Positions 3,394-5,787 of a stretch of 42,470 nt of DNA are shown here, piece after piece. The translations under genes were made by a program, and so were the position numbers. How positions within the stretch are numbered: position 1 is the stretch's first letter; every line of letters starts with the position of its first letter. This DNA comes from Coriobacteriia bacterium (lineage in GTDB: Bacteria > Actinomycetota > Coriobacteriia > Anaerosomatales > Anaerosomataceae). The stretch covers positions 1 to 42,470 of the forward strand of contig JAFGNP010000066.1 of the NCBI GenBank assembly GCA_016926975.1, in the 5' to 3' direction. The notes beneath the pieces are model-generated. The model saw only the letters and a program-made list of their open reading frames with translations, was not told where the DNA came from and did no database searches.

Positions 3394-3468
3394 GGGCCCG
3401 TAGCTCAACGGTGGAGCAGGGGACTCATAATCCCTTGGTTGCAGGTTCGAATCCTGCCGGGCCCACCA
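3394..3468 (+). tRNA. tRNA with CAT anticodon, probably tRNA-Ile2 (alternatively elongator Met), CCA encoded
   Basis: The acceptor stem GGGCCCG pairs with CGGGCCC, the discriminator is A and CCA is encoded. The anticodon loop CTCATAA gives CAT. It is not an initiator, because the anticodon stem lacks the three G-C pairs. C4-G69 and C5-G68 are present, as is the CATAATCCCTTGGT arm, which resembles E. coli Ile2. That favours the isoleucine tRNA modified by TilS to lysidine. An elongator Met reading cannot be excluded from sequence alone. The amidase gene starts only 15 bp after the CCA, so the two may share a transcript. Confidence 0.9.
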
Positions 3469-4665: not shown

Positions 4666-5643
4666 ATGCGCGTTCTTATCACCGGCGGCGCGGGGTATGT
4701 CGGCAGCGTCTGCACGCGGTCGATCATTGAAGCCGGTCATGAAGTGGTCGTACTCGACTCCTTGGAGCGCGGGCATCGCAGGGCGGTCGATCCCAGGGCG
4801 ACGCTGGTCGTGGCATCTGTTGGCGATCGGGAAGTGCTGGATTCAGTTCTCCCCGGGATGGACGTCGTCCTGCGTTTCGCCGGGTATATCGATGTCGCTG
4901 AGTCGCAGCGCGACCCCGACCTCTACTACAGGAAGAACCTGGCCGAGCCGGTCATGATGCTAGATCGGATGACCTGCAACGGTGTCGGACGGCTGGTCTT
5001 CTCGTCGACCGCGGCGGTGTACGGCGAACCCCGCGAGGTGCCGATTCGCGAGGAGGCGCCAACCGAGCCCATAAACGTGTACGGGCGCACGAAGCTCGAG
5101 TTCGAGCGCATGCTCGACAAGGAAGCCGCACTTCACGGATTGCGTTCGATCCGTTTCCGCTACTTCAACGTGGCAGGCGCATTGCCCGACGGCTCCCTCG
5201 GCGAGGCCCACGATCCCGAGACCCACATCATCCCACGCGCCCTGCGCTCGATCGCGGCGACCGGCGCGTTCGAGATCTTTGGCGACGACTACGCGACACG
5301 TGACGGAACGTGCGTCCGTGACTACATGCACGTCTGTGACCTGGCGGCGGCGCACCTCGTCGCCTTGGAGGCCCTGGGCTCTGGTCACGCGGGTGGTGTC
5401 TACAACCTCGGCAACGGGGAGGGCTTCTGAAATCTCGAGGTCGCCCACGCATGCGGGCGCGCCATCGGCCGCGAAGTGGATGTACGCTTCGGACCGCGCC
5501 GGGAGGGGGATCCCGCACGGCTCGTGGCCTCTTCCGCAAAGGCGAGAGACGAGCTCGGCTGGCGCCTGGAACGTCCGGACCTTGATACGATCGTCGCCGA
5601 CGCGTGGCGCTTCCAGGAGCTTCACCCTGACGGGTATGTCTAG
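4666..5643 (+). pseudogene. galE: UDP-glucose 4-epimerase GalE interrupted by an in-frame TGA
   Basis: GalE interconverts UDP-glucose and UDP-galactose. The ATG at 4666 has a good aaggag site at 4652. The protein shows the NAD-binding GGAGYVG (residues 7-13), the SST motif and the catalytic Tyr139-Lys143 pair (YGRTK). After NLGNGEGF the frame meets TGA at 5428-5430 (codon 255). The same frame then continues for 70 codons with typical GalE sequence, including GPRREGDPARLVASS and DELGWRLERP, and ends at TAG 5641-5643 at the expected length of about 325. In homologues the TGA position is usually Ser (GFS), and TCA to TGA is one base. It could be a recent nonsense mutation, a base-call error or a recoded codon. 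As read, the protein is 254 residues and lacks its C-terminal substrate domain. Confidence 0.88.
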
Positions 5644-5677
5644 AGCGTCCGGTGGGGCTAGCGCTGGGGCGCGAGAC

Positions 5678-5686
5678 TGCTACAAT
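5678..5686 (+). promoter_or_regulatory. Extended -10 promoter of tRNA-Val
   Basis: TGC followed directly by TACAAT (5681-5686) is an extended -10 element about 27 bp upstream of the tRNA-Val 5' end. No convincing -35 is visible, which fits an extended -10 promoter. Confidence 0.6.
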
Positions 5687-5712
5687 GGGCGGCGTCGTTT
5701 GAGGCGACACGC

Positions 5713-5787
5713 GGGCGATTAGCTCAGTGGGAGAGCGCTTCCTTCACACGGAAGAAGTCACAGGTTCAAATCCTGTATCGCCCACCA
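5713..5787 (+). tRNA. tRNA-Val (anticodon CAC), CCA encoded
   Basis: The acceptor stem GGGCGAT pairs with ATCGCCC, with discriminator A and encoded CCA. The D-arm is GCTC/GAGC. The anticodon stem CTTCC/GGAAG carries the loop TTCACAC, giving anticodon CAC (reads GTG). The T-arm contains GGTTCAAATCC. A strong hairpin follows 8 bp after the gene. Confidence 0.95.

Follow-up and report, generated by a model that had tools for sequence, protein, structure and literature searches.

An in-frame TGA in an otherwise intact galE of a Coriobacteriia draft genome, possibly a very recent nonsense allele

Draft assemblies contain pseudogenes, real or spurious, that are marked by a single nonsense codon, and excerpts of PMC11017572 attribute many apparent pseudogenes to assembly errors tied to the assembler, the platform and the coverage. 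An in-frame TGA is also a mark of bacterial selenoprotein genes. Bacterial SECIS elements are treated in PMC12013277, PMC4607533 and PMC13188914 (excerpts of each), and the last of these gives a rule for them (bSECIS): an apical loop of 3–9 nt with a G in its first two positions, an upper stem of 4–16 bp, a position 16–37 nt after the UGA and a minimum free energy of at most −7.5. Some real SECIS elements break this model, according to excerpts of PMC12013277 and PMC13188914. The galE gene described here resembles the single-nonsense pseudogenes in having one internal stop, intact flanks and no other damage, and we saw no difference from them as far as the excerpts of PMC11017572 describe such cases. 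It resembles the selenoprotein genes, as excerpts of PMC13188914 present them, in its TGA, in a stem-loop 16 bases downstream and in the presence of a Sec-type selD in the organism, but differs from them in having no Cys homologue at the site, a loop that departs from the rule and a TGA that occurs in no relative.

The window, that is, the whole 42,470-nucleotide stretch of DNA that was analysed, is contig C97 of a draft metagenome-assembled genome of 1.65 Mb (G000). On its plus strand, a galE frame opens with ATG at 4666, meets a TGA at 5428–5430 (codon 255) and continues to a TAG at 5641–5643. With the stop read through, the protein matches the galE equivalog profile TIGR01179 along its length (positions 1–331 of 332; 351.1 bits, cut-off 262.3 bits); its difference from such a GalE is the TGA at codon 255. 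The 254-amino-acid piece encoded before the stop (4666–5430 with the TGA) exceeds the cut-off alone, with 279.2 bits over profile positions 1–262, and the 70 residues encoded past it (5431–5643 with the natural TAG) score 54.8 bits over positions 265–331. The two pieces match adjoining parts of the profile, and their match on both sides of the stop is far beyond chance, which bears out the claim of the initial annotation that an in-frame TGA is followed here by 70 codons of intact GalE C-terminus. The solved structures closest to the protein are 8wxk and 2c20. A tRNA-Val gene (cac; 5713–5787, plus strand) is the downstream neighbour of galE and is given for context only.

We favour the view that the TGA would be an ordinary stop, one isolated nonsense codon within the frame of a galE that is normally conserved and has no other damage. 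It would represent either a loss-of-function allele that is real and very recent or a polymorphism between strains caught in the consensus. That the organism's DNA really has this TGA, and that translation ends there, is what we infer rather than observe. Translation would then stop after residue 254 and leave a product without the C-terminal stretch. Counted along the gap-free start of an alignment to chain 1kvr_A, the TGA codon is equivalent to Ser268 of E. coli GalE; R292 and D295 of that enzyme, which we take to be UDP-binding residues, align to R279 and D282 (counted on the same alignment), both past the stop. The stretch that would be lost carries this conserved R-x-x-D of the presumed UDP-binding region and, because it would lack it, the truncated GalE is probably inactive. 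We give a real, very recent nonsense allele, in a gene missing from some of the relatives, a probability of about one half. The lesion itself would be ordinary and matters little.

Orthologous GalE was found in 47 of 60 related genomes, as 48 matches with 53–66% identity and E values of 5.1e-100 or better (that of G050 was matched in two pieces). None of the 48 contains an internal stop, so the TGA is common to no relative. The other 13 genomes, five of them more than 95% complete, gave no GalE match of ortholog quality (their best E values run from 9.2e-27 to 9.4e-38, where there is a match at all), and in this respect galE looks dispensable. Its presence in this order is patchy. The residue at the TGA site was read at 36 loci other than our own, 29 of them from order-level relatives and 7 from genome contigs; it is Ser at 34 and Thr at 2 (27 Ser and 2 Thr among the order-level relatives, 7 Ser among the further loci) and Cys at none of the 36. 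Serine is indeed the usual residue there, as had been claimed at the outset. One observation counts against the nonsense reading: the serine codon from which TGA is reached by a single change accounts for only 5.9% of the serine codons sampled, so that the most direct one-step path would begin at a rare codon.

If the gene had been interrupted for long, the part past the stop might be expected to decay, and we compared both parts with 29 relatives. Mean identity to them is 0.643 before the stop and 0.570 after it. The difference, 0.073, lies within the range of the same difference in the relatives themselves (0.003 to 0.103), 6 of which show a larger one. The after-stop value is the fourth lowest of 30, within the range of the relatives and toward its lower end. 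At columns with at least 95% conservation among the relatives, the gene keeps 88 of 92 before the stop and 16 of 18 after it. When departures at conserved columns were counted by leave-one-out, the present galE showed 6 in 110 and the relatives 0 to 8; 3 of the 29 have as many or more, and 22 have 0 to 2. Six departures would fit a slightly relaxed constraint, which is at most a hint and concerns the whole gene. Clear decay past the stop was thus not seen, in identity or in conserved columns, against these 29 relatives, a further point against a nonsense allele. Since this part is still conserved, either the lesion arose very recently, or it does not really exist, or the stop is decoded.

The second of these possibilities, a wrong consensus base in the metagenome assembly of an organism whose galE is intact, falls somewhat short of an even chance. 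The draft state of the genome (142 contigs, completeness 93.72%, contamination 6.45%) makes such an error nearly as likely as a nonsense allele, and both the origin of many apparent pseudogenes in assembly errors (excerpts of PMC11017572) and a galE with neither another lesion nor clear decay speak for it. What speaks against it is a survey for other interrupted genes, in which 633 open reading frames from 728,630 bases of the same-genus genome G003 were compared with the window and 20 further stretches of G000 (326,281 bases, about 20% of the genome). The comparison yielded 158 places, with 51,185 aligned codons, and galE was the only interrupted gene accepted; some of the 158 are wrong-frame reading frames, because a simple ORF caller was used. 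Stops fell within the alignment for 17 queries, of which galE was kept. The other 16 were dropped by eye, not one by one, as wrong-frame or antisense reading frames, as frames that begin ahead of the real start, or as the gene's own end. Three candidate frameshifts were discarded too: two (L078 and L090) are pairs of neighbouring genes, and the third overlaps the tRNA-Met gene at 3394–3468. The survey is blind to the TGA of selD described below, because the G003 copy used as the query is cut by its own TGA. It replaced a codon-usage scan for in-frame stops in coding-like sequence, which gave 43 candidates in the same 326,281 bases but missed galE and was not used. With a sole accepted interruption in 158 places, there is no sign of a global reassignment of TGA or of errors in large numbers; the assembly does not seem rich in errors, and one error is still compatible with this. 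The initial annotation had listed a sequencing or assembly error, a recent nonsense mutation, a polymorphism and recoding, and had chosen none of them. A nonsense allele or polymorphism and an error are together by far the likeliest, and recoding is disfavoured.

Recoding in its most specific form would have the UGA read as selenocysteine by SelB, with a hairpin at 5442–5459 as the SECIS element and Sec where relatives have Ser, which we regard as very improbable. The hairpin exists. Bases 5442–5446 pair with 5455–5459 around an 8-base loop (−8.4 kcal/mol) that starts 16 bases after the TGA, much as in selD, where the spacing is 16–17 bases; to this extent the stem of about 5 bp that had been noted at the place of a SECIS element stands. 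Its loop, ACGCATGC, starts with AC and has no G in its first two positions, and so departs from the bSECIS rule while agreeing with the other limits, whereas all 12 selD sequences conform, with GG in the loop (they represent 11 genes, L066 and L070 holding the same G003 gene). We therefore do not accept it as a SECIS element. A looser rule, which tolerates internal loops or bulges and lone pairs, gives galE a GCAU loop and is satisfied by it, but 61.8% of 1,500 sampled positions satisfy it as well.

Hairpins of this kind are frequent in this genome. Among 5,000 sampled in-frame positions of G000, 13.2% are followed in the same range by a hairpin of −7.5 kcal/mol or better, 8.1% by one that agrees with the full rule and 3.1% by one with GG or GU; the caution voiced at the start, that GC-rich DNA often gives such stems, was justified. 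At the same galE site in the 29 relatives without the TGA, a comparable hairpin occurs in 5 and one that agrees with the strict rule in 4. Rfam SECIS models gave no match in 5300–5700 on either strand at E up to 10 (without a selD control). A weak antisense match to a CRISPR repeat (E 0.58; 19.5 bits against a gathering score of 35) was dismissed as a chance match on the same palindromic GC stretch.

An argument for selenocysteine comes from the genome. In G000, selD exceeds its family cut-off and carries one in-frame TGA near its start, followed by a hairpin with a GG loop (C94:70-987, minus strand; L062 / L078). The context is ...STKAG-TGA-AAKWGPGD..., and AG-TGA-AAKWGPGD recurs in relatives; an in-frame TGA with a GG-loop hairpin is also present in 10 other selD genes. 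A TGA-bearing selD match above the cut-off was found in 24 of the 27 genomes searched, our own included, and one more genome has a fragment with the TGA. Two selD genes of relatives show further damage, perhaps owing to assembly faults: selD at G036:C65:3727-4641 has one TAG besides the TGA, and that at G010:C23:18538-19345 lies in two separate pieces. Because selD has its own in-frame TGA, Sec decoding in this organism is likely, and the organism is probably able to read UGA as selenocysteine.

The initial annotation had pointed to selA, selB and selC in the genome as informative. What the G000 assembly gave is the TGA-bearing selD; there is no match for selA, none above the cut-off for selB and no tRNA-Sec, the best RF01852 match being a tRNA-Ser, and these absences count against a selenoprotein. 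Contig C94, however, ends before the selD frame does. In G003, of the same genus, selA and selB (order by coordinates) and tRNA-Sec lie after selD, and we suggest that selA, selB and selC of G000 may have been lost in an assembly gap at selD. tRNA-Sec was found in the stretches scanned from three of four relatives (G002, G003 and G008; not G005), and 45 of 61 genomes have a selB match above the cut-off, a point in favour of the Sec reading. Against this, selB is not above the cut-off in two of the four same-genus genomes either, G001 (98% complete) and G004 (85% complete). These two have a selD with an in-frame TGA, which may reflect the same assembly gap or selenium use without SelB. The search for further Sec genes covered one family, the molybdopterin oxidoreductases (PF00384), which has no match in G000. 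Formate dehydrogenase is a common bacterial selenoprotein; given this result it seems to be absent here, although selD has a Sec-type TGA.

Nearly all selenoproteins have Cys homologues, as stated in excerpts of PMC13188914, whereas the galE site has Ser or Thr at every one of the 36 loci. Together with the departure from the loop rule and a TGA shared with none of the 48 orthologous matches, this makes the Sec reading unlikely. A literature search for selenocysteine with UDP-glucose 4-epimerase and UGA had as its sole match a tapeworm transcriptome paper (PMC3510090). A GalE selenoprotein with Sec at codon 255, a SECIS element departing from the published rule and a Sec-type SelD in the organism would be a long shot; if true, it would be unusual, with selenocysteine at a site that has no redox role and is occupied by Ser. 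Recoding is thus disfavoured partly for reasons foreseen when it was first raised, namely stems common in GC-rich DNA and a non-catalytic site, while selD with its own TGA is a point in its favour that has since come to light. A useful caution follows: a TGA with a hairpin in a GC-rich genome does not amount to a selenoprotein, even where Sec is probably made.

The stop might also be read through, by near-cognate decoding or with a suppressor tRNA, or TGA might be reassigned. This would agree with the intact frame past the stop but is the least probable reading of all: TGA is the commonest stop in a sample of 293 long coding-like stretches (TGA 151, TAG 126, TAA 16), the 158 places surveyed gave no second internal TGA that we accept, and no tRNA with anticodon TCA was found in the window and the 20 stretches of G000 (together about 20% of its sequence; elsewhere, the scan covered only candidate tRNA-Sec loci).

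Upstream of galE, an amidase reading frame listed from a TTG at 3439 overlaps the tRNA-Met gene (3394–3468), and its real start is probably further downstream.
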